Source of the DNA: a virus
IMG/VR virus record: IMGVR_UViG_3300025401_000016
Coordinates: 1 to 64,000 of that record
Length of the DNA: 64,000 nt
Strand: one strand, 5' to 3'
Positions 10,021 to 57,200 of the stretch are shown piece after piece. The stretch's first letter is position 1. Every line of letters starts with the position of its first letter. A model generated the notes under the pieces. The model searched no databases. It was not told where the DNA came from and saw nothing but the letters and a program-made list of their open reading frames with translations. The translations under genes and the position numbers were made by a program.

Positions 10021-11127
10021 TTAAATACCAGCCAAACGTCTTAGATCAATCACATTATCACGTGATGTTTCTTCAACTTCTTGTTTTGTGGTAGCTTTAT
10101 CCCCAGTTACTGCTTGTACACTTTCTGAAAGCATAGATTTTTTAGTTTCTTTTCTTTCATTAATGTTATTAAGCACCGCAGGTAGATACTTGTCGAAAGC
10201 GGCTTGCAATTTTGGTGTTTGCACACTTTCTAGTAAGTCACGCATTACTGTTGCTTTTTCTTCATTCAAAGTACTTAGCAATTCATCCATAGTTTTTTGA
10301 CGACTATTAGATTCTTTAATAATACGAACTTCACGTTCTTTACTTTCAATTAGTTTTTGAGCCTGTACAATTTTCTTCGTTGACTCTTCTAATTGTTGTT
10401 CTTTACTTTCTAATGTTGCCATTAGTTTTCTCGTTTCTGCTTTTGAATTCAAATATGTACTACTGAATTCTGTTGCAAAACTTTCAAAGATACGGCGACC
10501 AAAATCGTTTTCACGAGCAGTCTTAATATCTTCTCTTAACTGATTCATTTCACCTTTGAGATGTTTAGCTACAGCTTCATTAACACGCTTTCCACTTTCA
10601 GACACAAAACGTGCCTTCAATGCTTCCAACTGTTGACGACCTTCAGCAACTAACTTAACCTTTGCTTCAACTACTGCTTGTTTGTCTTGTGAGAATTCTT
10701 TAATTTCTTTTGCAAGAGCTTGAACAACGAATTGCTCTAACTTTTGTTGACTTTCTGTTTGTAGTTTACGCTCACTACGTAATTCTTTGATTTCTTCTGA
10801 TAATTTTGTTACCATAAAATCATTAAATTTGCTTGCGTTTTCACGCAATTTTTGATGAGCTTTAACACGGTCTTCGTTCATTGCTTTCTTTTCAGCTTGA
10901 AATTCTTCAATTTCAGCTTGTAAGCTTTCTGTAACCATACTGTCAAGGGCTTCAACCATAATTAATTTATCATGGTCATAACGTTGTGCAAACTCTTCAC
11001 GTAGTTCAGCACGTACTTGCTCACGAGCCTCATTCAACTTAGATTCCCATGCCTCATTTATCGCTTGGCTTGTTTCTTCGTTGATAATTCCGTTCTCAAG
11101 TAATGGTTTAATAATTTCCAAATTCAT
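10021..11127 (-). CDS. gp22: Prohead core scaffold protein gp22
   Basis: A 368-residue, highly charged, almost wholly alpha-helical protein with long Glu/Lys-rich coiled-coil stretches (residues about 25-290), ending in a short acidic-to-hydrophobic tail. It opens 'MNLEIIKPLLENGIINEE', with the texture of T4 gp22 scaffolds, and lies directly before gene 23 as in T4. In the family it forms the inner prohead core and is destroyed by gp21. It is longer than T4 gp22 (about 269). Its ATG overlaps the stop of the homing endonuclease gene (ATGA), with an AAGGGGA ribosome site inside that gene, so expression passes through the inserted element. Confidence 0.85.
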   Translation of the reverse strand: MNLEIIKPLLENGIINEETSQAINEAWESKLNEAREQVRAELREEFAQRYDHDKLIMVEALDSMVTESLQAEIEEFQAEKKAMNEDRVKAHQKLRENASKFNDFMVTKLSEEIKELRSERKLQTESQQKLEQFVVQALAKEIKEFSQDKQAVVEAKVKLVAEGRQQLEALKARFVSESGKRVNEAVAKHLKGEMNQLREDIKTARENDFGRRIFESFATEFSSTYLNSKAETRKLMATLESKEQQLEESTKKIVQAQKLIESKEREVRIIKESNSRQKTMDELLSTLNEEKATVMRDLLESVQTPKLQAAFDKYLPAVLNNINERKETKKSMLSESVQAVTGDKATTKQEVEETSRDNVIDLRRLAGI

Positions 11128-11753
11128 TGGATTTCCCCTTTTATAGTTGTTCCGTTTAACTCCGGATCACCGAGCATGGATGATACAAAATACCATCCAT
11201 TCTTATTAGCTTTAGCCCATCTAGATATAGTACGGGCTGAAACGTCATAAACTTTTGCACCTTCATAAGAGGTGATGTATTTTGTTCCGTTAGGATCAAT
11301 ATAGTATCCACTCCATGTAGGATTTTTTATTCCTAATTTTTGTTCTCTTAATATTTTTCTAGTTTCAATAGTAACAGGGTTTCTTTTTTGTCCCTTTCTA
11401 CTAATTGAAATTTTTGTTTTCTGCTCTGATGACAACGACAATCCTTTATTATAAGAAGGGATACCAATCGTGCAAAATTTACCATCACCATTGTGCTGAT
11501 TAAAACTTCTAGAATCATTCTTTGCATCAAATAGTTTTAGAATTTCTGCCTCTAAATTTCTCATTTCTATAGGATTACCGGTTGCAATTATTTCTCGTTT
11601 CCATTGAGTTTTATCATTAATTATTAAAGGTTTTACTATTCTACTAGAACAAATATAACCATCTTCAACATGAGACTTTTTGCTAGTACGTGATCCAATA
11701 TACCATTTCATTGTTGGTAAGTGAGTCCATTTATATACGTAAGCGGTTGTCAT
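11124..11753 (-). CDS. GIY-YIG homing endonuclease (Seg-like)
   Basis: A 209-residue protein. The catalytic start shows Tyr5-Val6-Tyr7 and Tyr18-Ile19-Gly20, the two halves of the GIY-YIG signature, followed by a basic segment. Residues about 105-125 ('SSEQKTKISISRKGQKR') resemble a NUMOD3 DNA-binding repeat, and about 150-195 ('YEGAKVYDVSARTISRWAK') a NUMOD1-type helix-turn-helix. This is the usual build of free-standing phage homing endonucleases that cut a related genome to copy themselves in. It sits between genes 21 and 22, which are adjacent in T4, and its stop codon overlaps the gp22 start. The composition matches the rest of the phage. Confidence 0.85.
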   Translation of the reverse strand: MTTAYVYKWTHLPTMKWYIGSRTSKKSHVEDGYICSSRIVKPLIINDKTQWKREIIATGNPIEMRNLEAEILKLFDAKNDSRSFNQHNGDGKFCTIGIPSYNKGLSLSSEQKTKISISRKGQKRNPVTIETRKILREQKLGIKNPTWSGYYIDPNGTKYITSYEGAKVYDVSARTISRWAKANKNGWYFVSSMLGDPELNGTTIKGEIQ

Positions 11754-15381: not shown

Positions 15382-17937
15382 TTATCCCACATGGGTGGCT
15401 ATTTTATTACTGACATCAATAAGTGTACTTATTTCTGATGCTATAACTTGCAATTCATTTAAAAGATCACCTAAGTTAACACCGTCTCTGATTTGATTTT
15501 GTATTGGTTTTGTAGATTCATCTACTTTATTAGCTTTAGCTGTTGCATCTTCTACTATTTTTTGAACCAAGCTTGCTACTGCTTGATTGTCAACTTTTTG
15601 GTTTACTACGGGAACAGTTGGTGCAGATTTATTATCATTTGTATTATCAGCCGATGTCATAGGTGGGTTAGTTAACTCCCAATGCACAGGATCTTTTTTA
15701 GGAAAGGGTTGTGTAAATCCTTTTTCTTGTAATAATTTACGAATTTCAGGATGTTTATATAGATACTCAGTTGGTACGTCTATTGCTTGACCTGTTTCAT
15801 GTTTGCTTGCACCTGGTTCAGCTACTGGATTAGGATTATTTCCTCTATTTTTATACAATTGTTCTTGTTGCTCATGAGTTCTAAATCCACCATATGTCCC
15901 AATTGGTATATTGTATTTTTTTGCAAATTCATTAATTGTTAAACCATCTACTAATCCTGTTTGATTAGGTTTTTGCTCTGTTGGTTTATTTTCAGGTAAA
16001 TTGTTTGTTTGGTTTGGCGCCGGTGTAGTATCAGTTGATTGTTTATTCTCATCTTCTTTTTTTTCCAAAGCTAAATATTTATTAGCCTTCTCTACCAATT
16101 GTTTACTTTTATAGAGTGCTAATTCATTATCTCTTTGATCTGCTCGTATCTCATTTATTTTTTGATTGAATGTCTTTACATCCTCATCGTATGCCCTGAT
16201 ACCAGGACCGTAACCATTCGCTTTTAGTTTTTCTAGACTATCTATTTTCTCTTTTACTGCTTTATTATATTTTTCTTGTAATTCGTTTTTTTCTTTTTCT
16301 AATTCTTTTTTTGTTTGTGCTTCTTCATCTATTACTGTATTAGCATCTTTTGTTGACTCAATTGTTCTCCATAAATCTGTAAAATCTATTTTACCAAAAG
16401 TTATAAATTTAACAAATTTAGCAAGGCCGTATGAAGCATTATCCAACATATCAGTAAATTTTTTGATAATATCCATTGATGTTTCAAATGTGCTATCTGC
16501 AAGTTTGTCTAGTTTTTGCCTCGCTATCATACTATCATATTCTGCCTGAGCAGCTTTTATTACTTTTGGATCACCTTTTCTTTTAGCTTCTTCTAAATTA
16601 GCTTTTGCCACTAATACACTACTCATATTTCTTAATTTATTTTCTGCTTCCATTGTCTGTAATGTAGTACCTAGTGCAGCTCCGGCTTCATTACTTGCTA
16701 ATGCAGTTTCTCTATTTGCTCTATTATTTGCAGCCAACGCCGGTAGTGTTTGCTTTTTTAGTACATCAGCCATACCTAAGAATGCGTTACCACCGCCACG
16801 TACAACGTTTTGAAATCCAACAATGGTAGGTAACAATAGTCTTTGATAATTTGCTGCTAATTCAGTAGTTGCCCTACCGCCGTTTGCAATCAATGACATA
16901 GCTGCAGCACTCATTGTTGTACCAACTTGTTCTTGCATCAACAACATTGCGTTACTTGCTTGTTGTGCTAATGCAGGACCATTTGGTCCTGACTCTCTGA
17001 GTTTTTGTAGATATATTTGAAAATCTAAACTTGCTTGTTGTTCTTGTATTTTTTGTTGTGCAACATCTTTGCTCTGACCAGTTAACTGACTTAGTTCAGT
17101 TAATTGTTCAATATATTCTTTTGTTTTTGCAGTTACATCTGCTATATTATTAGATTCTAATTTACCAAATTTAGTTTGGTTTGCGATACTTAGTCCGGCA
17201 AATTTTATAATTTCTTGTTCAGTTACGCCCAGTGCTTTGAAATCAAAAAAATTATCTTTATCTGTTAATAAATGTTTTACTACCTGTTCAAAGTTTTTTC
17301 CACCTGCTGTAATGCTACCACCAAATGCACCTAAATCAGGCGCAATTCCCCTAAGTGTATTAGCAAAAAACGCTAAATTTTCTGATGATGAGCCTGTATC
17401 AATCTTAAGTTCTTGCATCAAGTTGGAATAATTACCAAACTCATCAACTATATTAGTAAATCTAACACCAACATCACTTAGTGTGTTATAAGTTTTTAAG
17501 TACTCATCATTGTTCTTCAATCCTAAGGCAACAAGACCACCAAATACTTTAATGAGTTCACCGGCAACAACACCTAAAAGTCCTAATTTTGATGTCATTG
17601 ATGCAATTGTGTCCGTAACACCTTCAACTGCACCGCCATATTTACCAACACCCTGTTCAGAACTGACCATCGCAGATCCAAAACGTTTGGTCAATGCGAC
17701 TAGTTGTTCAGTTGCAAGAGTAAGATTTGACTTTGATTTCTCTTCTTTTTTGGATGCCTCAGTTACACCTTCGGCAGCCCGATCTAGATCATTGAGTTCT
17801 TTACCAAAAGAGCCGGCGTGTTTACCAATAACTTTAAAAGCTTTTTCTAGGTCATTGGCTGCATCCTGATTACCTTCAACTAGTCTTTTAACAAATTCAT
17901 TGAATTCACGGGACACATCTTCATTATTATCTGCCAC
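15382..17937 (-). CDS. Tape-measure-like structural protein with C-terminal M15 peptidase domain
   Basis: I place the start at GTG 17937, not the ATG at 17970: AAGGA lies 7 bases before the GTG, whereas the ATG has no ribosome site and directly follows a late promoter motif whose transcript would start at about 17966. This gives 851 residues. Residues about 20-100 are helical and charged; near 110-135 is a hydrophobic 'LGLLGVVAGELIKVFGGLVALG' type stretch split by a few polar residues; about 530-640 is coiled coil. A Pro/Asn-rich linker leads to about 660-755, a D-Ala-D-Ala carboxypeptidase (VanY/M15)-type domain with zinc ligands in 'SKHETGQAID' and 'PVHWEL'. Inferred: tail protein that also cleaves peptidoglycan on entry. 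Tape-measure identity is a guess from length, helicity and neighbourhood with gp26/gp51. Confidence 0.65.
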   Translation of the reverse strand: MADNNEDVSREFNEFVKRLVEGNQDAANDLEKAFKVIGKHAGSFGKELNDLDRAAEGVTEASKKEEKSKSNLTLATEQLVALTKRFGSAMVSSEQGVGKYGGAVEGVTDTIASMTSKLGLLGVVAGELIKVFGGLVALGLKNNDEYLKTYNTLSDVGVRFTNIVDEFGNYSNLMQELKIDTGSSSENLAFFANTLRGIAPDLGAFGGSITAGGKNFEQVVKHLLTDKDNFFDFKALGVTEQEIIKFAGLSIANQTKFGKLESNNIADVTAKTKEYIEQLTELSQLTGQSKDVAQQKIQEQQASLDFQIYLQKLRESGPNGPALAQQASNAMLLMQEQVGTTMSAAAMSLIANGGRATTELAANYQRLLLPTIVGFQNVVRGGGNAFLGMADVLKKQTLPALAANNRANRETALASNEAGAALGTTLQTMEAENKLRNMSSVLVAKANLEEAKRKGDPKVIKAAQAEYDSMIARQKLDKLADSTFETSMDIIKKFTDMLDNASYGLAKFVKFITFGKIDFTDLWRTIESTKDANTVIDEEAQTKKELEKEKNELQEKYNKAVKEKIDSLEKLKANGYGPGIRAYDEDVKTFNQKINEIRADQRDNELALYKSKQLVEKANKYLALEKKEDENKQSTDTTPAPNQTNNLPENKPTEQKPNQTGLVDGLTINEFAKKYNIPIGTYGGFRTHEQQEQLYKNRGNNPNPVAEPGASKHETGQAIDVPTEYLYKHPEIRKLLQEKGFTQPFPKKDPVHWELTNPPMTSADNTNDNKSAPTVPVVNQKVDNQAVASLVQKIVEDATAKANKVDESTKPIQNQIRDGVNLGDLLNELQVIASEISTLIDVSNKIATHVG

Positions 17938-17948
17938 AATTTTATCCT

Positions 17949-17956
17949 TATAAATA
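17949..17956 (+). promoter_or_regulatory. T4-type late promoter for gp26
   Basis: Exact TATAAATA on the plus strand, 44 bases before the ATG of gp26 and followed by an AGGAG ribosome site at 17990-17994. Confidence 0.75.
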
Positions 17957-17972
17957 CGATTACGGTACATAG

Positions 17973-18000: not shown

Positions 18001-18828
18001 ATGGAATCATCAAACCCACTACAACAATATTTTCGTAGACCATCAATTTATTTGAAATTACCCAGTCAGGGTCAGGGATACCCTGAGGGTGCAATCGATC
18101 TTCCTGAAAATTTAGAGATTCCTATATATCCCATGACTGCTATCGATGAGATAACTACTAGAACTCCTGACAGTTTATACAATGGTATGGCTGTAGTAGA
18201 ACTTATTAAAAGCTGTGCACCCAATATCAAAGATCCATGGAGTATACCATTAACTGATTTAGATCCAATATTAGTTGCAATACGTATTGCTACAAACGGT
18301 ACCTTTATGGAGATAGATACTAGTTGCCCAAGTTGCAGCGAAGGTGCAAAATTTGATCTTAATTTAACCGCAGTACTGAATGATTTTCAAGCAGGTGACT
18401 ATAGCACACCGTTGACCATTGGAGATTTAAACTTTAAGTTTAGACCTTTACAATACAGAGAAATCAATGAAACGAATTTAATACAATTTGAAGTTCAAAA
18501 GTTGATTAGTATAGTGCAACAAACAGAAGATCAAGAATTAAAAAATCAAAAAACACAAGAATTGTTACTAAAGATCAATGGGATCGCTTCCAGTGTTATA
18601 ACCAAAACCATTGAATACATACAAACACCAAATAGTACTGTGTTTGAAAAAGAGTATATTAAAGAATTTTTAGATAACTGTGATAAGAATACATTTGAAA
18701 CTGTAAAAGACTTTTCTGTAAAAATCAGAGAACTATCTGAAAATAAACCACTGGACATTACTTGTACTAGTTGCCAACACCAATATAAACAATCATTTGC
18801 TATTAACCCATCAACTTTTTTCGAATAA
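18001..18828 (+). CDS. gp26: Baseplate hub subunit gp26-like
   Basis: A 275-residue protein of the T4 baseplate/gp26 family, needed for hub assembly. 'YLKLPSQGQGYPEG' near residues 18-31 and 'IYPMTAIDEITTRTPDSLYNG' region near 40-60 are the recognisable family stretches. Two CxxC pairs ('CPSCSEG' near 109 and 'CTSCQHQ' near 257) look like a zinc site. It is preceded by an exact late promoter and AGGAG. The gene ends at TAA 18826-18828 only 3 bases after a T TTT TTC slippery heptamer, and the -1 frame stays open to 19052, so a longer gp26-gp51 product is likely. Longer than T4 gp26 (about 208). Confidence 0.85.
   Translation: MESSNPLQQYFRRPSIYLKLPSQGQGYPEGAIDLPENLEIPIYPMTAIDEITTRTPDSLYNGMAVVELIKSCAPNIKDPWSIPLTDLDPILVAIRIATNGTFMEIDTSCPSCSEGAKFDLNLTAVLNDFQAGDYSTPLTIGDLNFKFRPLQYREINETNLIQFEVQKLISIVQQTEDQELKNQKTQELLLKINGIASSVITKTIEYIQTPNSTVFEKEYIKEFLDNCDKNTFETVKDFSVKIRELSENKPLDITCTSCQHQYKQSFAINPSTFFE
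18816..18822 (+). promoter_or_regulatory. Probable -1 ribosomal frameshift site
   Basis: T TTT TTC in the gp26 frame fits the X XXY YYZ slippery rule and ends 3 bases before the stop codon. An inverted repeat ATAAGGC (18825-18831) / GCCTTAT (18862-18868) starts just behind it and could form a stimulating stem, although the 2-base spacer is shorter than usual. Confidence 0.65.
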
Positions 18829-19052
18829 GGCTCCATTCTTTAGACTCCGAGGGAATCAAGGGCCTTATCGCACAATACGAAAAAGAATGTGATGATATCA
18901 AGACTGGAGCAATGAAAATGGCTTGGTATATGAGAGGTAGTGTATCATATACTGACATACTCAACATGAGCATATCTGAGAGAAAAGCCATAAACAAATT
19001 GATTGATGATAACTTAGACACTACTAAGAAGTCCGGACTACCATTCTTCTAA
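18822..19052 (+). CDS. gp51: gp51-like extension in the -1 frame (gp26-gp51 fusion product)
   Basis: After the slippery site the -1 frame encodes about 76 residues to a TAA at 19050-19052. It includes 'GLIAQYEKECDDIK', 'MAWYMRGSVSYTDILNMS' and the ending 'DTTKKSGLPFF', which match my memory of gp51 (baseplate hub assembly) proteins of marine T4-like phages. The first ATG in frame is 18912, with GGAG only 2 bases away, and would drop the first 30 well-formed residues. So the natural product is probably a 350-residue fusion made by frameshifting, like lambda gpG/gpGT. T4 gp51 is a separate protein of about 249 residues. Confidence 0.65.
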   Translation, partial: RIRLHSLDSEGIKGLIAQYEKECDDIKTGAMKMAWYMRGSVSYTDILNMSISERKAINKLIDDNLDTTKKSGLPFF

Positions 19053-35288: not shown

Positions 35289-38200
35289 ATGGTAACAAGA
35301 ACTAGAACGATTGATTTCTTACCAGAAATTTTTCAAACACGTACCAACCAATTATTTTTAAATGCAACATTGGATCAACTTGTCCAACAGCCTGACTTTA
35401 AAAAAGTGCAAGGTTTTATTGGTAGTAAGTTTGGTTACGGAGTAAAAAGCACAGACACATATCTCGTAGAACCAGATAGTGTTAGAAACAATTATCAATT
35501 AGAACCCAGTGTTGTATTTCAAAAAACTGGTACCAGTCAGGCAATAGATTTAATTACCTATCCTGGCATCATTGATGCACTTAGAACTGAGAGTGGAATT
35601 AATGTCAGTGATAACAAACTTTTTAATAATCAATTTTATAGTTGGGATAGTTTTGTTGATTTAGATAAAATTATTAATTATGGACAATACTATTGGATCC
35701 CAACAGGTCCTGAAAGTGTAAACATAACAACAGAAAAGTTGTTACTAGATAGCACATATACTATTATCAACAATCCTAATACATATGATTTTTCAATCAA
35801 TGGTGCAACACCTATTGTTGGAAATCCAGAAATAACACTAGTCCGCGGTGGTACTTATACTTTTCTAGTTAATCAAGATACACCCTTTTATATTCAAACT
35901 ATGCCTGGCATCAGTGGTGTAGATCCTACAAAAACAAATGTAAGCACAAGAGAAATATACGGAGTCACCAATAACGGCGTGCCAAATTCTGTGATGACAT
36001 TTACAGTACCAATGGCAGATGCAGAAGATGGATATCGCTATCCAGTGGGCATAACTATAGATGTAGTTACTACATTAGATTTTAATCAAGTCAATGGACA
36101 GTATGTATTTGCTATTGATGGTGTAACAGATTTAGAGAATAAACTATTGATGTTCTATGGTCAAGATCCAAACGCTACTAGTTCAGTAGATGGTAGTATT
36201 CTCAATCAAAATCTATATAGAATTAATTATGTACCAACAAGTGATCCTTTACAGTTTTTAATTCAATTGACTGCTTATACATCAATACCAACAGAAATTC
36301 GCATTGATGCTAATTCAGGTAAACAGTTTATTGGTAAAAGTTTTGTTAAAAATGCAGTTGGTGAAATTATACTATTGCCACAAATCACATCAAATCTAAA
36401 CACATTGTATTATGTCGATGGCACCAATGATAAAAAATACGGTATCATTAAATTGGTTGATGATGTTTTTAGTAGTGTATTAAATGTAAATGATATATTA
36501 GGTAGCACAAATTATGTAAGCCCAAATGGTATTACATTTAGTAATGGATTAAGAGTTACTTTTACTGGGTCAGTATATCCAGAAAATTATTTGAATGATA
36601 GTTATTATGTTGAAGGAGTAGGCACTAGCATTAATTTAATACCTAGTAGTCAGCAAATTGTAACAGAACCGTTTGGTCAGTATATTGATCAACCTTTTGA
36701 TGAGGCATATTTTGGTACAACACCATTTGATAATAGTAAAGACTTGCCTAACGTTCAAGACTATATAACAATCAATCGTAACTCACGTGACAAAAATGCA
36801 TGGAGTCGTAGCAATTGTTGGTTTCATGTTGATGTATTAAAAACAATTGCTAACAACAATAATATTAGTCCTATTGCAAGCGCTGCACTAGCCAGTACCA
36901 CAAATCGTGCAAAACGTCCTATCATTGAATTCTATCCTAATCTAAGATTATTTGATCATGGAATCAATGGTAAAGATACAATCGATTATTTTGACAATAT
37001 TACTCCAAATGCATTGTCTACTATAGCAGGTGGATCATTAAATGTATATTATCCTGATGGCCCAACAAGTGCACTATTTGATGGTGCTAGAGTTGTTTTT
37101 GCTGCAGACAACGATATCAATGTTAGAAATAAAATATATACTTGCCATGTAGCAACTATCAACAACAAACAAATCATAACATTGAGTGTTGCATTCGATG
37201 GTAATATCGAATACTTAGACAATGTACATGTATCTAGAGGTGAATCAAATGCAGGCTATAGTTTTTACTTTGATGGTAACCAGTGGTTAAATTGCCAAGA
37301 AAAACAAACAGTAAATCAATCACCTTTGTTTGATTTGTTTGATAAAAATGGTAACAGTTTAAGTGATCAAGAATACTATCCTGGTAGTGATTTCAAAGGT
37401 TGCACATTATTTGAGTATCTATTGGGATCAAATCCATTAGATCCAGTACTGAACTTACCTATTAGCTATAGCGGAGTAGGTAATTTAAATGACATTGTAT
37501 TTCAAACTTCATTGAATGCAAATACATTCAATTATGTTATAAACAATACCAGTTATAATGAACAAGTAAACATTGGTTATGTACACTCATATGATAAAAA
37601 CAATCAATTGGTAAGAAAAATTGGGTGGAATACTGCGGTTGAACGTAGTTTTCAATATCAAATTTTTAACTTTGTGTATAATTCTGTAACAATGCCTAAT
37701 GGTCCTATATTTGTTGCTGATGTAATGATTAAAGATAGTATGTCAACAATGTGGCCCACTATTGTAGTCTATGTTGACAATTCAGTTGTTGATAGTACTA
37801 ATTATACAGTTACAAATACAAATGATACAACTTCAATTACAATAACATCAAGTATCAGTGATGGTACACACGTTGATATTATGTTATATAGTGATCAAAC
37901 TAGTAATATAGGATACTATGATATACCAACTAATTTAGATCACAATCCATTCAATGAAACCATCACTACTCTTACAAGTGGTGATATCAGAGGACATTAC
38001 AAAAGTATTTGTAACAATTTAGCAGGTAATTTAATTGGTACTAGTTTTGGTGCAAACAACTATAGAGATTTAGGTGATGTTACAGGTTATGGAACAAGAA
38101 TCATACAGAATAGTAGTAGTTTACCTATTGCCGCTGCTTTTATTCGTAAACAAAGTGCAAACTTCTTTAATGGTTTAATATACAATAGCAATGAATATGT

Positions 38201-41200
38201 AAAATTTAAATCAACATTGGTTTATACTGTAGATCAACAAAATTATACACCATACGATAGTGCCGCATATATGCTAGATGATACATTGAGTATCATGGTT
38301 GGGGTAAAATCACCAGATAACAGCTTCTTCTGGAGTGATATGATACCTAATCAGAATCCAACCATTAGTAATAGCTATGCGTTTAGAATTGGTTTAAGTA
38401 AAGCATTATTCCCATTATCTAGAGTATATGATTTTACAGTTGCAAATTATTATGGTGTATTAGCATATGTTAATAGAACAGTAGACGGATTGCCTGTACA
38501 ATTACAATTAGCAAAAGATATTGATTATGTTATTGTAGACAATTATCTTGAAATTATAGTACCATTAAATGACGGTGATGTAATTACGGTTAATGAATAT
38601 GACCAAACATATGGTAGTTATATACCTAATACTCCTACTAAGTTAGGATTTTATCCAAAGTACGTACCTACAGTTATATTAGATGATACATATTCAACAC
38701 CTACATATTTTATCATTGGGCATGATGGAAGTTATACTAAGTTGTACGGTGAATACAATAACGGACTGTTACAAGATTTCCGTGACAAAGTATTATATGA
38801 ATTTGAATTGCGTGTTTACAACAACATGAAAGTAAACACTACATTTGCAATTCAGCCAAATGATATTCGTCCTGGATTCTTCAGAGATACAGGTTACTCA
38901 TATGATGAGTACATGTCAATTTATACTACCAACTTTTTAAATTGGGTTGGATTAAATCGTATTAATTATACTAATCAGTTCTATGATAGTACTGATGATT
39001 ACACATATAATTATAATACTGCAATCAGTAGTTTAAGTAATACAACATTCAACAGTGGTAATTGGAGAGGTATATTCTTAAATCTATATGATACTTGCAA
39101 TCCACATGATAGACCATGGGAGATGTTAGGCTTTGTTATAGAACCAAGTTGGTGGCAAACACGTTATGGTGCTGCACCATATACAAGTGATAACTTATTG
39201 TTATGGACAGATTTAAGTAATGGATTCATTTACAACAATGGTAATAGTTATATTGATAAAAACTATGTAAGAGATGGATTACTAAAAATTATTCCAGTTG
39301 ATGAGAATGGAAATCTATTAAGTCCATTCAGAATCAAAGGATTGATTAAGCGTTATAAAATCACTGATTTCAAAAATAATTGGAGTGTAGGTGATGTTGG
39401 CCCTGCTGAATATAGTTATATAAAAAGTAGCTCATACCCATTCGATTTAATGCGTATATACGCATTACTAAAACCAAGCGATTTCTTTTGTTTAGGTTTA
39501 GACTTAGATGGCTACCGATACAATACTGAGTTCAACCAATTTTTAACTGATGATCGCTATAGAACATCATTGACAAATATTAATGTATATGGGAATGGTC
39601 AAGGCTTAGCCAGATCACTGCAGGATCAGTATGCAAAGCATAGTTATTTGAATTGGTTAGTTGATTATCTCAATCAATATGGTGTTGGTAGTAGTGAAAC
39701 TATTGCAAATACATTGGCAAGTCTAGATGTTAGATTAGCATATAGAATGGCTGGATTTAGCGATCAAAATCAACTACAATTTTTAATTGAAAAAGGTAGT
39801 CCAAATAGTACTAGCAATTCATTATTGATCCCGGACGATAGCTATAGTATATTGTTGTACCAAAACGAACCTAATGACATCATTGTTTATAGCTCTGTTA
39901 TTGTGCAGAAAACACTAACAGGATATAAAGTATTTGGTAACAGTCAAAACAAAGCATACTTCTTAAGTTATGCACCTTACTATAACAACCTAGTAAACCC
40001 AATCACAGTAGCTAACACAACAGTTAATATCCCAATAACTTACACAACAACTGTGATTACTACTCCATATGGAACAGAATTCTCTAGTGTACAATTATTA
40101 TGTGAATTCTTAAAAGGATATGGTAATTATTTAGAATCTCAGGGTATGCAATTTAATGACATTGAAAATAATGTTGCTATTACATGGGATCAAATGATTG
40201 CTGAAATATTGTATTGGTATAACAGTGGATGGGAAGTTGGTAGTACTATTAATGTTAACCCAAATGCAAATACACTTACAATTGATACTGGAAGTACAGT
40301 AGTTCAACCTCTTACCGATTATACACATAATTTTGTATTGAATCAAAATTTGGTTCAATTTCCATTAGAAAGTCTAGCAATCACACGTATTGATACACAG
40401 TTTACTGTAAAATCATTAAGTCAAGCCGACGCTATAAGTTATTTTAAGAGTACATTGAGTAGCGTAGAACATGCAGTTGTATTCAATAATGTAACTGTGT
40501 TTAACGATGTTGTGTTTAACTTACTTACTGGATTGAGACAACAACGACTTTATCTAAGAGGCACAAAGAGCAATAATTGGAATGGTACATTGTACGCACC
40601 TGGCTTTATCATCAATCAAAGTAATGTAGAACCTTGGACTCCAAATACGCAATACTACAAAGGTGATACAGTATTGTATAAAAATAGTTACTACATGGCT
40701 AACATTCCTGTGATAATTCCAAGTGACGTATTTACAGCTAGTAATTGGATTAAAACCCAGTACCAAAATATACATAAGGGGTTAATTGCTAATCCAAATA
40801 CCAGAGCCAGTGAAAGTCAATTGTATTATGACACACATTCTAGTAATTTACAAAATGATGCGGACTTGTTAGGATATTCATTGATTGGATATAGACCCAG
40901 ATCGTATCTAAGTGATATTAATCTAACGGATCCAAGTCAAGTTAATTTATATCAATCAATGATTGCACTTAAAGGTACTGAAAATGCACTAAACATATTA
41001 CAAAGTATTGATTTGAATGCGATTCAATTCAATTATAGTATGTACGAGAATTGGTTAGTACAAAAATCAGAATATGGTGGTATATTAAACCAAAACTTCA
41101 TTGAATTCACACTAGATGGTGGAATGTTAACTGGTAATCCAGCAATCGTTAGTGTCATTGTTGATAAACCAGTTAGTGCAAGTCAACAAGAAGTGCCACT

Positions 41201-44200
41201 ATATAGTCTAACCAATTACGGAAGACTATTAGATAATACAAATATATTGCCACTCAAGACAACTCAAAATACAAAAGGTCTACCAAGTGCAGGTTATGCT
41301 AACTTGAATGACACAACATACTATAGTTATAACTTAAATCAATTACCAAATAGTACAATTTATAATTTATACGGAGATGATTATATATACCTAGCCGATT
41401 CCAATGGTGATTGGGGTATGTATTGTGCAATACCTATCAAAGATGTAAGAGTAACACATGTCATTAATAATCTCAATGGAACAGTAACAATAACATTTAC
41501 TAAATCACCTTTACTAAATGTTGGTGATATGATTGGTATATTGAATTTTGATACTAGAGTGGATGGTTACTATACAATAGATGTAGTAGTAAACAATACC
41601 ACATACATCATAACATTAACATTAAGCAATAATGTGACACAGGTAACTAGTGGTACTGCATCGTTTGTATTCAATTTAGAATCTGTTAGACTTTCTAGTC
41701 CTATAGGATTGTTAAACCTAAGTTTACCATATGAGTACTCAAATAATTTAGTATGGGTAGATAGTGATAAAAATAACAATTGGGCAGTACTAGAGAAAAG
41801 TTTAAATTATACTAAACAAAATTTCTTAGGTAGCATCAGTGGTAATGAAACATACGGTGATAGTGTTAACTATGTACCGGGAGTAGGTTATGTTGTTGGT
41901 GATAGTACATTAGGTAATGTGTATACCTATGCAAAAACAGACAACGGATACATACTAAGAAATACAATTTCACATACTCCACCTTTTGGTAAAACCATTG
42001 CTAGAAATGATGAGTTTTTATTAGTTTCTAGTCCAGATAGTTCACTAACATACATCTACATATATAGAATTGTTCAATCACCTGAGATTGAAGCATTGGT
42101 TCCAGAACAAATACTTAGCTTTGCATTGGATACACCTGTTGGTAATACAATGACTGTATCCGGTGACGGGCAGTTGTTGTTTTTAAGTATTGATGGATAT
42201 AGAACAAACAGTTTGTCTGATACCTGGGTGATTCCTCCTACTGTATTAGTATATAAACGCAATCCTTCATATACATATCAACACATTAAATCTACACAAG
42301 AAATTACAATCAATGGTACACCAGTGTACGAATTGATGCGTTTATCTGAAGCAACATTACCTGATAAAAAGTATTTCAAAGTAATGGGTGATCAAACTGT
42401 TAATGGTGATATTCATACAGGTGCTAGAGTAACATTCTATCAATATACACAGTTTGGTACATCATCAATATATTCATTTGGTTATATACCACAAGCATAT
42501 ACTAAACCTGCAGTTGTTGTGACAGGTGGTAGTGGCACTAGTGCGTCATTTGATGTAACTCTAAATCAAACACGATATACTGCTGCTATACATGCAGCTG
42601 GTACAGGTTATACAGTTAATGATATATTGACTATACCTTATACTATTTTAGATGGCTTAAGTACAACAAATAATTTAGTAATCAAAGTAGTAACAGTCAG
42701 TAGTACCGGCCAAATAACAAGTGCAAGTATAGTTTCTGGTGTTGCAAACGGATATAATTTAAATACAGATCCTGCTGATTCTCAATCAGTATTATTTAAA
42801 GCAACCGGATTCCCAAATTCAAGTAATAATTACTTACAACAATATAGAAAATATTATTTGAAATTAACAGGTACTATCCCAGTTGGTACAGTAATTAGTT
42901 TTGACCCTACTGCTGATATTGTGGATTATACATTGACTGCAAATAACACATATTATGGTACTTTGTTGACAGGTATAACTGCTACAAATAAAGTAAGCAC
43001 AAGCGGAACAGGTACAGTAAAATTTGATGTAGATGTAAATGGAGCAACATATTTAAATGCAACACCAAGTCTTGGTTACTTAGGAACTGGTTATGCAGTA
43101 AATGATACATTAACTATATTAGGTTCTAGTTTAGGCGGTGTTGATACAACTAATGACTTAGTTTTACAAGTTACTGCAATTGGTACCTCGGGTAGTATAG
43201 CACAAGTTGAAATAGTATCTGGTACAGCAGTATCCTCTGAATATACAACATTATATCTTGATAACAGCAATTTACAAGCAACATTGTTTGCAGAAACATT
43301 CATTGCATTAGATTACGGACCTAGCCATGTATCATCTTACATATTATCTGACACTAGTAATGCAGTATATGTATATAAAAACATGTTGCCAAATTATGTA
43401 ACAATAATCACATCAAAGTATGATATTATAAGTGATGTGACTACATATTTTACAGTAGAATATATTGGTTATAGTGTCACTGGAGTCAATACATATGTAA
43501 GATCGGTTAACAATCAGTTTTCATTGGTTGGTAATTTAAATAACGCAATATCACAAGACCCTGCAACAGGTTTATATTCATTAGGTCAAGTACCTACTAA
43601 TAGCTTTGGAAGCAGTATTGCTAATAGCTATAATGGGGATAAGTTGTTTATTGGATCCCCCACAAGTAATTTCAATGATGCAATTGCAAATGTTGGATAT
43701 GTTTATATATACACACGTTTGAGCGAAACTTGGGAAGTTCAGTATGATGTTGCAAGTACTGATTTTTATACTTTGATATTACCTTGGGTACCAGACCCAA
43801 GCAGTTCAGTATACATTAATGGAGCTATGTTAGAGACAAATCAATATGTAGTATTGAACTTATTGTCACAAGGTTGTTTCTTATTGATAGGACCTCGTGT
43901 ACATGCAGGCGATATCATTACATTAAGTAGCCCAAACTTTGTATTAGATGCAAGAATAGCCAGTTATGATTCATTGGCACAATTACATCAAGGGCAAAAA
44001 TTTGGTTCAAGTTTAGCATGTAATATTTCAGGTAGTGAACTATTAGTTGGTACTCCATATGATGTAACTGTTAAGGGCCAAGAAGGTGCAGTATACCGTT
44101 ATACAAATGAAGGTAAAAAGTTTGGTACAATAACTGCACTGATTGCTGCAAACAATCAATTAGGTGCAACTTATATATTGTTGAATGGCTATCGTGTTAC

Positions 44201-47200
44201 GATCCCAGCAAGCGCTGATGCATATGATGTTGCAAATGCTATCAATGAGTTTGCTGTTCCTAATATTATAGCTTATGTATATGATGCACCCACTGGAGAG
44301 AATTTATTAAGAATTAGATTGCTTAACCAGGACTTAATAAGCGGTGACAATAAATTAAACATAGCAGTATTCAATGGTAATTTCTTGTATGAATTAGGAA
44401 TTAGTTCATATATAAAAACACAAACTATTCGTGAACCGCATCCACAGAATAGCAGTCGTTTTGGATTAAAACTTGCATTCAATGAAGCAAGTAGTTTTGT
44501 TGTAACTGCCCCAAGAGCAACTAGATACCTAAATACAGTATTTGATCTGATTGATGCAAATAATTCACATAACAATACTGTATTTGATAATAACTTAACA
44601 ATATTTGAAGATAGTTTCTCTAACGCAGGTGCAGCATATGTATACGATTATGTTACACCTTATAAAGAAACGTTATTGAATACTGGACAGTTTATATTTG
44701 GACAAGCAGTTAACGATACTATTATTGATTATGGTCCTACACCAGAATATGGATTAAGTGTTGCGTTTAGTAATAATATTATTATGGTTGGTAGCCCTAA
44801 CTTTAAGTCCAACACACAAATACAAACATTGACATTTATGGGTGATGGCACAACAAAACGTTTTGGTCCATTAGCTGATGGTATTACTATATTCCAGTTG
44901 TTAGTAAAAGTAGATGGACTACCACTAAAAGCAATTACAGATACAATGTATTATAATGGTGACGGAGTAAGAACAATATTCCCTATACCTGGTCAACTAC
45001 AACCTAGTGATTTGTTAGTAACAGTTAATAATGCACAAAAAGTACCTTATACTGATTACATTACATCAGGTAATAATCTAACTTTCACAACTGTACCGGG
45101 TTCAGGAAGTGTAGTAGCTATTACTGGTTTAAGTTCAAATACATTTAGATTAGATAGTAATATGAGTGGTGGATTGCATATATTATTCTATAGTGCACCG
45201 TCTAATAATAGTGTTATAACTGTTGTAGAAAATTTGACATCTAGTGTAAATGGTTATGCAGCTGAAAATGGTAGTGTGATAATATATGAAAATACTAAAG
45301 GTATTACAAATTGGCACACATATCGTAGTCCATGTGAAATTGTAGATGTAGCAAAGATCAACAAAGTTCAATTGTATAATAATATAGACAATACTAATTT
45401 AGATTCACTAGATTATTTTGACCCATTGAATGGTAAACTATTAGGTGCAGTAAAAGAAAATATTGATTATATTTCAAGCAACGATCCTGCAGGATATAAT
45501 TCAGATGTTTCACATGCATCGGGTAAAAATACATGGGGACAAGATCATGTAGGTAAATTATGGTATGATACATCAACCTCAAAATACCTAGACTATCACC
45601 AAGATGATTTATCATATAACAGTAGTTATTGGGGTTATTTATTCCCAGGTAGTATTGTTAGTGTATATACTTGGATAAGTAGTTCAGTTGATCCATCAAT
45701 GTATAAAGGTCCTGGTACAGTATATAATACCAACTTATATGCAGTATCATATAGTACAACAAGTGCATCACAACTAAATGCAACATACTATTTCTGGGTA
45801 AGAAATACAAATACATTATACGGTGATAAAACTCTTACTGATACAGTATTAGAAAACTACATTAGTGATCCACAAAATAGTGGTATCACATACTTTGCAC
45901 CATTAACAAGCAATACATTTGCATTATATAATAGCCGTGATAATATCAATGGATTGAATACAAATATACATATTGGATATAGTTCTGGTAATGGGCAAAG
46001 TGTATCACATGCAGAATATGAACTAATTCGTGCGAATTTTGCTGATGATTTCTTACCGGGCTTTATTGATAATAACTTAGGTATAACCAGCCCAACTGGA
46101 CTATACTCTGTATTATTAGATAGTTTTGCAGGTGCTGATGAGGCTGGAGAAATCGTTCCTAACTTTAGACTACCTGCATATTTGCAAGTAGGTATCAATG
46201 TAAGACCTAGACAAAGTATGTTTATCAATCGCTTTAATGCATTGAAAAACTATTTGACATACGCTAATAATATAATCATACAATATCCTATCAATGATTA
46301 TAGTGCCCCTTCATTCTTATATACAACTGGTGAATACTATAATACAAGTAACTACTGGTATAATGTATACTGGTGGCAAACAGGTTATGATAATAATACA
46401 AAGACAGCAGTAGAAGTCAGTACATATAGTGATTTATTGAAACTAACACCTACATCTGGTTTGATTGTTGGTGTAAGACAAAACAATAAAGGTAAACGTG
46501 AAATTTACATATACAACAATAATATTTGGTCACGTATTGGTTTACAAGATGGCACTATACAATTTAGTAGTGCGTTGTGGGATTACACAAATAATTTAAT
46601 TGGATTTGGTAACAGTTTCTTTGACACTACTCCCTTTGGATATTTCCCTAGTATTGAAACACGCTACATCATACGTGCATTGAATGAACAAATTTATGTT
46701 AATGAGTTGTTAGAACATCGTAACAAGAGTTTGATATTGATATTTGAATATATTCAAAGTGAAAATATTGCAGGACATAATTATTTGCCGTGGCTTAATA
46801 AATCAAGTTTTGTTGATATTGATTATGTAGTACGTTCATTGATACAGACACCTAACTATCGCCCAGATAATGATATATTGATAAGTGGATATGTTGATGA
46901 AATAAAACCTTATCATAGTGTAGTTAGAAATATTGAATACAAATATACTGTTCAAGATAATACAGAAACATATAGCACAGACTTTGATTTACCTCCCTTG
47001 TATAATAAAACAAGTGGTAAATTTACCAGTCCTAACCTAGTCTATAATGTTAAGCAATTAGGTACAGGTAATTATTTGGCATCTGACCCTATATGGCAAA
47101 ACACCAATTATAGTGATTGGATTAATAATTACGGGCTTAGTTTAGTTGACTCACCTAATTATATTGTATGTCTACTAAAAACATATGCATCTGCAGCTGA

Positions 47201-50200
47201 TAGTATACTTTATGTTAATAATGCTAGAGGATTACCAATCGAAGGTATAATGAAAATTGACAATGAAGTTATTGCATACAATACAATAGATATAGAACAT
47301 GGTACAATTTCAGGACTAACACGTGGCTTAAATCAAACAGTGGTAGTAGAACATTTTGCCGGCGCAAGCGTAATAATGGATTTACCTGCAATCGTAGTTC
47401 TTGATAGCGGAAGAGGTTATATTGACCCACCTACAGTTACCGCAGTTATTGACACAACAATATATCCAGCTCCTATTGTACCTGCAGTATTAAAACCAAT
47501 TATGTCCGGTGATAGAGTTGTAGGAGTTACTGTAGTAAATCCTGGAAAGAACTATCCAACTGTTCCTGAAATTGTTATAAGTAGCAGTTATAATGTTTCC
47601 TTTACTAGCGACCAAATTAATTATGCTGCCAGTACAATTGTATTACCCACAACATATTTGGTTACAGGTGATCTAATAAGAAGTACAAGTGACAGTTCAA
47701 CACAAACAACAGTCGCTGATGGATATTATTACATATATGTACTTGCTCAATTAGTAGGTGGAGAGTTAGTAGAAATTACATTACATAAATCATTTTCAGA
47801 TAGTTTAGCAGGTAACGGAAAGGTTCAACTTGTTCCACCTACTAATCTAGTGACATATACATTTGGATTAACTGCTCAAGCAGTACCTCAAGTAAGTAAT
47901 ACTGTTGTGCGTGGTTTAAGTCCTAAGTTACGCTTTGATAGAACAAGTTACGAACCAAAAATAGTGCCTTGGAAACCTAGCTTATTTTACAGTAGTCCTT
48001 ATGCAGGAGTAGGATCAGATATAAGTCAGACACTTGGTTTAAACTATGGCACAGTTATCAATACAATACCAGACTCTGGTACAGTATCACCTAGTGGTGG
48101 CACAGGCGCCACATTTACAATTTATAACATGTTACTTGGTGGAACATACGATGCAGTTATTGTTCATTCTGGTACCGGGTATCATGTAAATGATGTTATA
48201 ACTATTGCCGGTAACTTATTGAATGGTGCAACCACTGCCAATGATTGCAGAATAACTGTAACAGCGGTAAAGAACATTTATAATAATGGTCAGGGTATGA
48301 ATCAAGATAGTACTAGTGGTTCTGGTACTGGTGCATTGTTTATTATAACCAGTAATGGATCTACTTATACTGTTACTAGTGGTTATCATTATGGTACTGG
48401 ATATGTTGCAAATGATACAATTACATTTGTAGGTACACGATTTGGTGGTGCAACACCTGCTAACGACTTAGTAATTACTGTAACATCGGCAAATGCTTCG
48501 GGTGCTATCGCACAAGGTGGATTTACATATGCAGGTACACCTGTTAATACTGGTTCAATCACATCAGTCTCAGTTGCAGGTATTCCTATTACTGCAAATA
48601 TAGGAGCTAGTGCTACAGGTGTATTGTTACCGATTACTAATTCTACAACTGATGGTAATGGTGATATTGTAGTTAGTTTTAATTATGCAGTTAGTGGAAT
48701 GACTCCGGCACAAATTCAAGGTTCACCTATATATTTCTACAATAGCAATGAATACTATACATATGATGACACTCTTAATAGTGGTGCTAAATTAGAAATT
48801 TATAGACCTAGATTTGATCCATACAATCTTAGAGAAGAATATACAGTAAAAGTTATAAGTTCTGGCAATATTTACAATGACAATAGTGTGATTGTAATAG
48901 CAGGTACAAATTTAGGAGGAACAAGTCCTGCTAATGATGCTACAATATTCATAACAACAGGAGAGGCTACAGGTAATCATCCTATTAGCACTGTACGTGT
49001 TACAGGTGTAAGTTATGATGCATTTGACATATATTATGCTAAACCTGTAAACAACACAGATGTACAGGTATATGTTGATAGTACGATGAAGATACCATTG
49101 AAAGCATCACACTATACATATACCAATTATGTTAGTTTAAGTACCGGTACTAATCCAGTATCATATGCATACATACCAGAGCCAATCTATGCAGGTGAAA
49201 GCTATATCTATGATGAAAGCAGTTATGTCATATACAATGACATTGCATATCGTTGTATACAAAGCAACAATGATAGTACATTCATTGCTTCAAAATGGGT
49301 AAAAGTAAATCAAGATGATGTTAATCTTAATGCATTAGATAGAATTGCAACATACTATAGTCCTACTAGTAACATGTTACCTAAAGATATCAAACAATTG
49401 ATAGCAGGTGTTTCTTATCCTGATAATGTTTACTATGGTAATAGTTTTAGTCCAGAAGACAGTTATCCAATTGATGTAGTGGTTGCTGGACAAGAGTTCT
49501 ACCCAACAAATGTAAATATCATTTCACTAATATATGACGGAACACATTATATTGGCTTATCTGAAAACTCACAACATAGTAGTGTGTTGTCTAGTACAGA
49601 TGGAATTCATTATAACAACAACACAGTTAGTACACAACCATTATCGGTTACAAGTATAACATATTATGATCCATATCAACAATACTTGGTAACAACAGGT
49701 GTTGCAGAAAATCCAATCATGTTGAGTTACGATTTGGAGAATTGGGTCACAGTTGGTGCTACTGTTAATAAATTTGGTGTATCACATTTTGATGAAACAC
49801 CATTTGATGTAAATCAAATATCATGTCCACCTGGTGTGTTGAATAGCATAACAGTCGCACAAGGTTATTATTATGCAGCCGGAGAAACAATATTAAGTAG
49901 TCCCGATGGAACAACATGGACAACAGTTTCACCATCTGATAATTCAACTAGAATGTTGTATTGCATCAAGAATATTGTAACATCACATTTTGATGGTTTT
50001 GTAGCAGTTGGCGGAGAAACAATAGTAACATCTGATGCAGGAACAAGTGCACCAGCAACCACAAATGCAAGCACTATCATTTATAGTACAGATGGTGTCA
50101 CATGGACAGTATTGACTCCATATATAACAACCAATACATTATATACAATATGTTCTTCACCAACTACAATAGTAGTTGCAGGTGATAATGGATGTGTATA

Positions 50201-54242: not shown

Positions 54243-57200
54243 ATGACATATAAATCAAAGTCATTAGTACAAGCTATTGATTATAATACCATAATTGGTA
54301 CTGGTACTACAACTTCTAGTTCCACTGCTACAATTAATGTTGTAACATATTCTGATATCAATTATGGTACTGATAATTTACAGACAGTAGATATTTTAGT
54401 TCCAAGTACTTGGGATATCACAACTAATATTGGAACTCCACCAAAAGGTGTTGTACTTTGGATTCACGGTGGCGGTTGGATTATTGGTGATAAAAGCCAA
54501 GAACTTGGTGTTACTGTATCAAATGTACAACTTGAATACTTAGTAAAAGCCAATTATATAGTTGTAAATGCAAATTATAGACTAGCCGCAAGTACATCAC
54601 AAGATCCAACTCCTACTGGATTCTTCCCTAATAATGTCACTGACATACAACAAATTGTTAATTTTCTATTATCTGATGGTGCAGGATATACCAATGCACC
54701 TAATATTGGAGCTAGTAGAAATATGTGGAGATATACACGTGCTGCGGCTAAATCATTTGGTTTGATGGTTGCCGGTGGTTCTGCTGGTGGTCACTTGGCA
54801 ATAATGGGTGTAATGCAGAATGCATTGAATAACGGAGGCATTTTCCCTACATCTGTGTTAAGTATTGTAGGACCAATGAATCTAGTAACAGCCGGTGCAT
54901 CAGATGCACAGAATCCAGCTGGTACGGCAGCAGTAGGATTAATAAACACATACATGAATGGCGGAAATCCTGCATCAGCAAGCCCTTATTATCAACTATC
55001 AAATTGGTTAGCTAATAGCACTCTTGTTAATACAAATTGTAAATTTTACTTTTGGTATAATGATGCAGACACATTGGTACCAAATACAAGTATTGTTCCT
55101 TTCGCCACAAATTTACAAGCTGGATTAGCCAACGCAGCTAATGTCACACTTATTGAAGTCAATGTTGATAGTTCAGGTAATACAGGTGGTGCAGTTACAA
55201 GACCTGCAGGTAGTGATGGATATCCTACTATATACGCAGCCTCACATAACATTCCTGGTTTGGGCCCATATTCAATACCTTCTACATTAATTAATATAGC
55301 AACACAAGCGTTTCCTACAACATATACTCCTACTGTATTACCTAACTCAATAAATGCAGTATGGGGAACAGGCGTAGGTCCATCTGGTTATGGTCAAGCA
55401 CAATTAACGCCTATCGCAGATCCAACACTCAGTCATACAATTACTACAATCAGTGCCAAAGATTGGGAAAATGTAATAGCAGTTACTAATTTAATTGCAA
55501 ATCAACAGGGTACTACGATTCCTTCAATTACACCGCCTGTGATTGGTAGTAAAATTACAACAGATGCAAATTTAATAGCAGCCTTGCATTCAATCTATAC
55601 CAATAGAAATAATAGTGTACAACAAGGTACTCCATTAACCAATACAAAAACTAGTGCAGATACATGGAATAATATAATTGTATTTCAAAATGATTTAACA
55701 TTTACAGATCCAGATAGAACAAGATATTTTTTCAATTTAGGTGGACAAATAGAATTACAATTTAGTGCTACCGATGGTGCCTCAACTAGTATAGACCACA
55801 TATTCAATCAATTAGCAAGTAGTTGCGGATCTTTATACATTTCTGGTGTTAGTACAGGAACAGAAAACATTAATGGTGTTGTATATACTGGAGTAACGGT
55901 AGTAGGTGGTATACCTCCGACAACATCCAGTGGTAATATATTATTTACTACCGGTGGTTATTATGGTCTAACAACAGCTTATACTGAAATCTTTAGACGT
56001 ACTGTAGGCGGATCAGGTAGCGGAGCTGGTTCATATATAAGCGTATTAGCAAAAACAAACGGAACACACGGTAATAATGGTGATAATGGTACAGTAATCA
56101 ATATACAAACATGGTTTGTGCAAGTACCTAGTGGTATACACAATGTATCTGCTGGTACCACTGTTACATGTACAGTTATACCACCTTACTTAAACCCTAA
56201 CTCATATCCTGATATAACTAAATTACCGGCACATTATAGTCAAAGCGCAAGTGTTTATAAATTTAGCCAATCATGGGATGTACCAAGCAATTCATCAACT
56301 TATACTATTAATAACAAAACACTTGTAGCGGCAACATTAGGTGCCATCACATTTACTCCAACTACACAGGTTTCAGGAAAGCAATTTAGTATTAGTGTTG
56401 ATGCAAGTAATGGGTATGGATTAACATGGGCTATGACAATTGTTGGTGCTGCAAGTGCAACAAACTTGTCATACTCTGGTGCAATATCAACTGCATCAAC
56501 ATATACAATAAAGAAAGACGTACTTGCACCGTCAAAACCTGATACTTTGGTAGTTACTGTTACTATAGGTACAGGACCAAGTGCAGTCGTACAAACAGCT
56601 AATTATACAGTTACTGCTCCTGTATATACTAATACAGTAACAATGCCAACTAACAATAGTATAAACACAGGTGATACACTAACTATCGTTTTTGCTGGTT
56701 CGCCTAACGATACAATTACTGCTACTGGTTTATATCCGCCAGATCCACAAGACGATCCTACACAAGCTTATATAGTACCATCAATACCTCAAATATTTAA
56801 ACTAGATGCAACAGGTGCATATACATATACACATTCAAATTATGCATCACTCGTACCAGTAAGCCCATTCAAATTTACATTTGTATTTGGAAATGATTCT
56901 AAAACAATTATATCTAAAACATTAACTATAACACAAAGCGGTTCTAAACCAGTTAAAACTTATAATCTATATGCACAAGATCCTCAAGGTAATCCTAGTA
57001 GTGGAGTAAAACCCGGGGATAGCATATATTTTATATTAAAAACTACAAACGTACCTTATCAAACTCAAGTACCATTTACTATTGGTGGTATTAGTGCTCC
57101 GGCGGACGGAAGTATTGCATTAGCCGCAAGTGATTTTTCAAATATTAATCTAAATGGAAAAGATGAATCAATAGTAACAATTAGCGGAACACAAAATTTT

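Follow-up and report, generated by a model that had tools for sequence, protein, structure and literature searches.

A gp26-like gene that very probably encodes two forms of a T4-type tail-assembly chaperone through -1 frameshifting

Introduction

The locus at positions 18001-19052 of the viral DNA studied here raises the question of whether a gp26-like gene with a stop codon of its own gives rise to one protein or to two. The stretch analysed, referred to as the window, comprises 64,000 nucleotides (positions 1 to 64,000 of IMG/VR record IMGVR_UViG_3300025401_000016). A first-pass annotation, made from the letters alone, had proposed that gp26 and gp51 sequences are joined at this locus by ribosomal frameshifting and act as a chaperone pair. 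The comparisons described below make it very probable that the gene is a T4-type tail-assembly chaperone that occurs in two forms by virtue of a -1 frameshift.

A 2016 review regards T4 as an exception to the conserved frameshift of tail-chaperone genes (PMC5009743). A short/long pair of tail-assembly chaperones in T4-like phages is the subject of Vladimirov, Gautam and Davidson (2022, Virology 566:9-15), and papers that cite this work mention some T4-like phages that do not frameshift but have a short gene and a longer, fused one (PMC10885494) as well as poly-T slip signals in the TAC-N genes of T4-like phages (PMC12846349). Since the citing papers describe both slip signals and short and fused genes, mechanism and family can be considered known in outline, and the 2022 paper already covers part of the picture of frameshifting and duplication. 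That the genes treated there are gp26 and gp51 is our own reading of the homology and consistent with the citations. The distribution among jumbo phages, the hairpin and the explanation of the short cyanophage gp51 were not found mentioned in the accessible literature, although the full text of the 2022 paper may contain some of this. The window gene appears, with good support from sequence comparison, to be a clear further case of the frameshift published in outline for T4-like phages.

Slip site and reading frames

The features of the locus and of its surroundings are compiled in Table 1.

Table 1. Features of the gp26-like locus and further elements of the window
Feature	Position	Strand	Basis
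Predicted short form, gp26-like tail-assembly chaperone (TAC-N), 275 aa	18001-18828	+	PF12322, phrog_150, AlphaFold2 model
Slippery heptamer T TTT TTC	18816-18822	+	sequence; conservation across gp26 clusters
-1 frame extension (76 codons + stop), C-terminal part of predicted 350-aa long form (TAC-NC)	18822-19052	+	open, conserved, purifying selection
46-codon ORF from first -1-frame ATG, lone gene-finder call	18912-19052	+	sequence; purifying selection upstream of this ATG
Two-stage RNA hairpin, likely frameshift stimulator in the window's clade	18826-18867	+	folding energy, two-sided pair changes
862-aa virion-type protein	15382-17970	-	VanY peptidase domain
209-aa ORF	11124-11753	-	by eye
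5,627-aa ORF	35289-52172	+	
2,238-aa virion-type protein	54243-60959	+	BD-FAE domain
tmRNA gene	62585-62937	+	Rfam

In frame 0 the sequence at the 3' end of the gp26-like gene reads TCA ACT TTT TTC GAA TAA, so that the last base of ACT and the two following codons form a correctly phased X XXY YYZ heptamer. The heptamer lies one codon ahead of the short-form stop codon (18826-18828), as the first-pass annotation had noted, and its six-T run is the site of the predicted one-base backward slip. The -1 frame is open from upstream of the heptamer, where its nearest stop lies 13 nt away (seen in the identical locus L001), to a TAA at 19050-19052, and its first ATG, GTG or TTG occurs only after 30 codons, at 18912. 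Thus, the 76-codon open frame and the gap in start codons, both claimed beforehand, were recovered as described.

The heptamer occurs 15 times in the window versus 16.4 expected and is not rare on its own. In a scan of every frame open for at least 100 codons, on both strands, a canonical heptamer at most 12 codons from the stop and followed by a -1 extension of at least 50 codons was encountered in a single case, at this locus. Since a lone heptamer is as common as expected, the argument is carried by position and conservation.

According to the proposed mechanism, most ribosomes would terminate at 18826 and release the gp26-like short form, while a fraction, at a rate that would leave the short form in the majority, would slip back by one base on T TTT TTC with the aid of the downstream hairpin. 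The slipped ribosomes would produce the long form, ending in a segment equivalent to the C-terminal tail of T4 gp51. If the pair works like lambda G/GT (PMC5009743), the abundant short form may attach to the tape measure or to a component of the hub, and the less abundant long form may recruit the tail-tube or a hub protein. The tryptic peptides predicted to be diagnostic at the junction are QSFAINPSTFFE for the terminated and QSFAINPSTFFR for the shifted product.

Conservation of the heptamer and selection on the -1 frame

Relatives were taken from viral contigs and phage records, and their gp26 proteins were clustered at 70% identity, giving 33 clusters that are related and hence not fully independent events, with proteins less than 70% identical between clusters. 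The heptamer is present at the gp26 end in 29 of the 33 clusters, which range from cyanophages over KVP40-like vibriophages (such as phi-ST2) to jumbo phages. Where the protein ends in a Phe-Phe pair, the heptamer is used in 28 of 32 cases versus 4.4 expected from the codon usage of the same genes, and it is found at none of 7,770 codon positions elsewhere in gp26 genes. Moreover, the codon ahead of Phe-Phe is drawn from ten different codons that all end in T, whatever the residue. Sequence comparison thereby indicates that the heptamer at the gp26 end is selected and not a product of chance.

In the window's clade, each of the nine distinct members, with 49-82% gp26 identity to the window, possesses T TTT TTC together with the 76-codon -1 extension. 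The same holds for the heptamer and the -1 frame in all ten distant jumbo phages examined, namely Phosso, Atu_ph07, PA5oct, SCTP-2, XbC2, PBECO4, CBB, BF, Vibrio phage 2.275.O and RaK2, at about 24-31% gp26 identity. Relatives with a separate gp51 start codon and no slip site had been named as the observation that would speak against frameshifting; clade and jumbo phages alike were found to keep the heptamer. A variant was seen in Stenotrophomonas phage RAS14 (L030 2760-3020), where T TTT TTT stands in phase instead of T TTT TTC and a long -1 extension displays the same motif (ITLNEIWETTPYERNYMRAFL).

Among the nine clade members, pN/pS in the -1 frame amounts to 0.45 for codons 3-31 past the slip, the stretch preceding the first start codon of the window, and to 0.28 beyond codon 31, as opposed to 1.08 and 1.57 for codons 3-31 in the other two frames. 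Because this stretch is constrained ahead of any start codon, it behaves as if translated in the -1 frame, and the ATG at 18912 is for the same reason unlikely to be a true start, given the purifying selection on the codons upstream of it.

A downstream hairpin in the window's clade

The 7-bp inverted repeat reported in the first-pass annotation is present, albeit as part of a larger, two-stage hairpin in which 18826-18833 pairs with 18860-18867 and 18835-18841 pairs with 18850-18856. The window hairpin has a folding energy of -15.6 kcal/mol versus -10.2 +/- 2.5 for shuffled sequences (z -2.2), and it recurs in most clade members with z values down to -4.4; in L008 it is no better than shuffles and in L009 it is weak. 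In the clade alignment, RNAalifold reveals four pairs with changes on both sides. Considered alone, the hairpin is paired in 87% of cells, a value reached by no shuffle, with slid versions at 36-64%; the register is offset by one base in the window and L002. A further RNAalifold structure, in which the T run pairs with columns 73-79, was disregarded, as these bases are already constrained by the heptamer. An Rfam search of the junction returned no match.

Taken from nine sequences only, the data lend moderate support to the hairpin in the window's clade. In the cyanophages tested, the corresponding region is mostly no better than chance, with the exception of L074 (z -3.4), and the hairpin is therefore treated as a feature of the window's clade.

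Relation of the two forms to T4 gp26 and gp51

The short form matches PF12322 (T4_baseplate) with an E value of 4.3e-17 and 63 bits, above the curated Pfam cut-off of 24.5, and phrog_150 (baseplate hub) with an E value of 2.8e-17. The best matches of its AlphaFold2 model (pLDDT 84.6) are predicted T4-like baseplate hub assembly proteins, an Aeromonas phage gp26 ranking further down. Neither a sequence search nor a fold search of the PDB with the window gp26 yielded a relative.

PF12322 is matched by T4 gp26 (208 aa; 8.8e-64) as well as by T4 gp51 (249 aa; 3.9e-52), and phrog_150 is covered to position 235 by the former and to position 280 by the latter. On these profile matches the two T4 proteins are paralogs, gp51 consisting of a gp26-like protein plus a C-terminal tail. 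The short/long chaperone logic holds because both belong to PF12322, and with heptamer and -1 frame kept as well, the earlier proposal of a gp26/gp51 chaperone pair is supported. Residues 147-246 of T4 gp51 match phrog_634 (1.2e-23), as do the -1-encoded 'gp51' genes of S-RIM50 (1.7e-19) and phi-ST2 (1.8e-20). If cyanophage gp26 is fused to its own -1 extension, the resulting profile aligns with T4-type gp51 over nearly its full length (99.1%).

The extension of the window's clade aligns with those of the jumbo phages (99.4%), and with gp51 C-termini at an hhalign value of 84% (E 7.5e-6) over 33 columns only, the tail of T4 gp51 in this comparison being residues about 200-249 and the common motif SYTDILNMSISERKAINKLI on one side of the alignment. 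It also matches phrog_18291 (E 8.6e-5); there was no match to phrog_634, and the direct comparison with the cyanophage extension was not significant (1.6%). When fused products were compared with full-length gp51, only the C-terminal motif was aligned (window 24%, jumbo phages 4%), so that the N-terminal link rests on the Pfam and PHROG profiles. The gp51-type character ascribed to the -1 sequence in the first-pass annotation finds support at the level of this motif only. Since T4 gp51 is in its turn a paralog of gp26 that bears a tail, the window extension would correspond to the C-terminal tail of gp51 only, and the likeness to gp51 appears weaker for the window's clade than for cyanophages.

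Genome setting

The gene is surrounded by a T4-like set of neighbours, including a major head protein, a protease, a portal, baseplate wedge proteins and a late sigma factor. The source virus record (100,827 bases) contains one PF12322 gene only; as the record is incomplete, a second copy of the gp26 family may lie outside it. The tape-measure-like neighbour invoked earlier exists insofar as a large virion-type gene adjoins the gp26-like gene in divergent orientation; profile searches, however, assigned only a VanY peptidase domain to its 862-aa product, and no tape-measure profile matched in the window. Using tblastn, only matches to the peptidase domain, in Campylobacter phages, were obtained, and the protein did not match the one that follows gp51 in cyanophages. 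RaK2 has the same gene order, and its counterpart of the 862-aa protein is annotated as similar to tape measure.

Several further elements of the window were recorded. The phage-borne tmRNA gene, with the tag ANDSVFQLAA, scores 124.7 bits for beta_tmRNA and 121.1 bits for the overlapping tmRNA_permuted model of Rfam, which may hint at a betaproteobacterial host. At the start of the 2,238-aa virion-type protein lies an alpha/beta-hydrolase domain (BD-FAE, E 7.2e-15), a type of enzyme that is unusual in structural regions, and the baseplate wedge gene is followed by a single 5,627-aa ORF. The 209-aa ORF, flanked by the head protease gene and a coiled-coil scaffold-like gene, resembles by eye a GIY-YIG homing endonuclease and has no Pfam match at 0.01.

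One gene or two across T4-like phages

T TTT TTC is missing from the gp26 end in all six tested phages that carry a pair of PF12322 genes (T4, Aeromonas 31, Proteus phiP4-3, an Acinetobacter Lazarusvirus, a Krischvirus and RB43), whereas each tested phage of the frameshift type has a single such gene, that of SCTP-2 being below the profile threshold. Judged from these genomes, slip site and second gp26-family gene are mutually exclusive among the phages examined, and since two-gene phages lack the site that one-gene phages possess, one frameshifted gene most likely makes both forms. The same pattern lets the T4 exception appear as a gene duplication; on the simplest reading, T-even phages would have replaced the frameshift by duplicating the gene.

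Other arrangements were observed at the gp26 end. In the Ackermannviridae 3M (L027 2640-2870), ECML-4 (L125 1900-2120) and T765 (L126 2190-2400), gp26 ends in NTT TTC ATY TRA, a slip site weaker than the canonical heptamer (G GTT TTC in 3M), and the same motif (GYSIFEIS..MPWHLD) follows in the -1 frame, with no start codon at the junction; T765 has a single PF12322 gene. In Microcystis phage Mel-JY01 (L031 2734-2970) and the uncultured LR756508 (L033 2745-3000), a tail-like motif is located in the +1 frame, and these phages may rely on a +1 shift or on a start of its own for the tail. The short gp51 genes annotated in the cyanophages S-RIM50 (L025 2682-2872) and S-RIM8 (L026 2679-2869) and in phi-ST2 (L028 2406-2575) start at internal ATGs, with the -1 frame open back to T TTT TTC.

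Alternative explanations

Two separate proteins could be made if the downstream ORF were translated by termination-reinitiation or from an internal start, the heptamer being incidental. A separate downstream gene at a TAATG overlap is indeed annotated in PBECO4, XbC2, BF and phi-ST2, and the junction reads ATGA in L002, L004, Phosso and Atu_ph07. However, a junction ATG is confined to a minority of relatives: in the window's clade the junction codon is ATA, TTA, CTA, GTA or ATG, the latter in L002 and L004 only, so that most members have no start codon there and re-initiation cannot be the general route. Moreover, the first ATG of the window lies 30 codons in, behind codons under purifying selection, the three conserved synonymous choices at the heptamer would be left unexplained, and the two-gene phages already carry the tail fused to a gp26-like domain. 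Separate translation is for these reasons very unlikely. Transcriptional slippage, in which RNA polymerase would add a U within the T6 run and thereby generate mRNAs that read into the -1 frame, draws on the presence and conservation of that run. Six Ts are a short run for such slippage, though, the Ackermannviridae share the extension although their run is only four Ts long, and both the in-frame phase and the hairpin agree better with ribosomal slippage, which renders this explanation the least credible of those considered, with hardly any weight.

A different objection accepts the frameshift and takes its products for structural parts of the baseplate hub rather than for assembly chaperones. 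Databases name the family baseplate hub, and genetic work cited in a T4 review assigns gp26 to the hub (PMC3004832). In that review, however, gp26 and gp51 also appear among the hub assembly chaperones, and gp51 is stated to be required yet absent from the final particle (PMC3004832), so that T4 genetics supports an assembly role, and a short/long pair made by frameshifting is typical of tail-assembly chaperones (PMC5009743). A structural role is accordingly considered improbable, if less so than the two preceding explanations, and the products of the -1 frameshift are preferably viewed as assembly chaperones.

Comparison with known systems and implications

The predicted pair resembles the T4-like chaperones, as far as they are known from citations of the 2022 paper, in its PF12322 membership and in a long form that adds a C-terminal domain to the short one; T4 differs by having two paralogous genes, the window virus one gene with a slip site. 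In common with lambda G/GT, the window virus possesses an open, selected -1 frame devoid of its own start codon, whereas lambda G/GT lies directly upstream of the tape measure and the window gene diverges from a large virion-protein gene. Cyanophages (Kyanoviridae) likewise have T TTT TTC at the gp26 end and a gp51 tail in the -1 frame, but their gp26 is only about 20% identical to that of the window, the hairpin is mostly absent and gp51 is directly followed by a different large protein. In members of the Vandenendeviridae, phage Adele among them, the 3' end of TAC-N has a family-wide poly-T slip motif together with an open -1 frame (PMC12846349); in that family the motif is GTTTTT (PMC12846349), and the likeness to the window is one of locus layout.

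A broader reading, to which we attach about even chances, is that recoding at the gp26 end is general and old among single-gene T4-like phages while its signals turn over, with T TTT TTC in most cases, NTT TTC in Ackermannviridae, an added hairpin in the window's clade and perhaps a +1 shift in Mel-JY01 and LR756508; duplication in T-even phages and a cyanophage gp51 reduced to the tail would be parts of the same history. The short gp51 of cyanophages was noted to have about 20% of the normal length (PMC3037559), and if it represents the frameshift tail only, the missing first 200 residues of T4 gp51 are explained. The finding also points to an annotation gap that is widespread: the short cyanophage gp51 and the small hypothetical genes that follow gp26 in jumbo phages are probably frameshift tails, and the predicted proteomes of these phages would therefore miss a real protein of roughly 300-350 aa.
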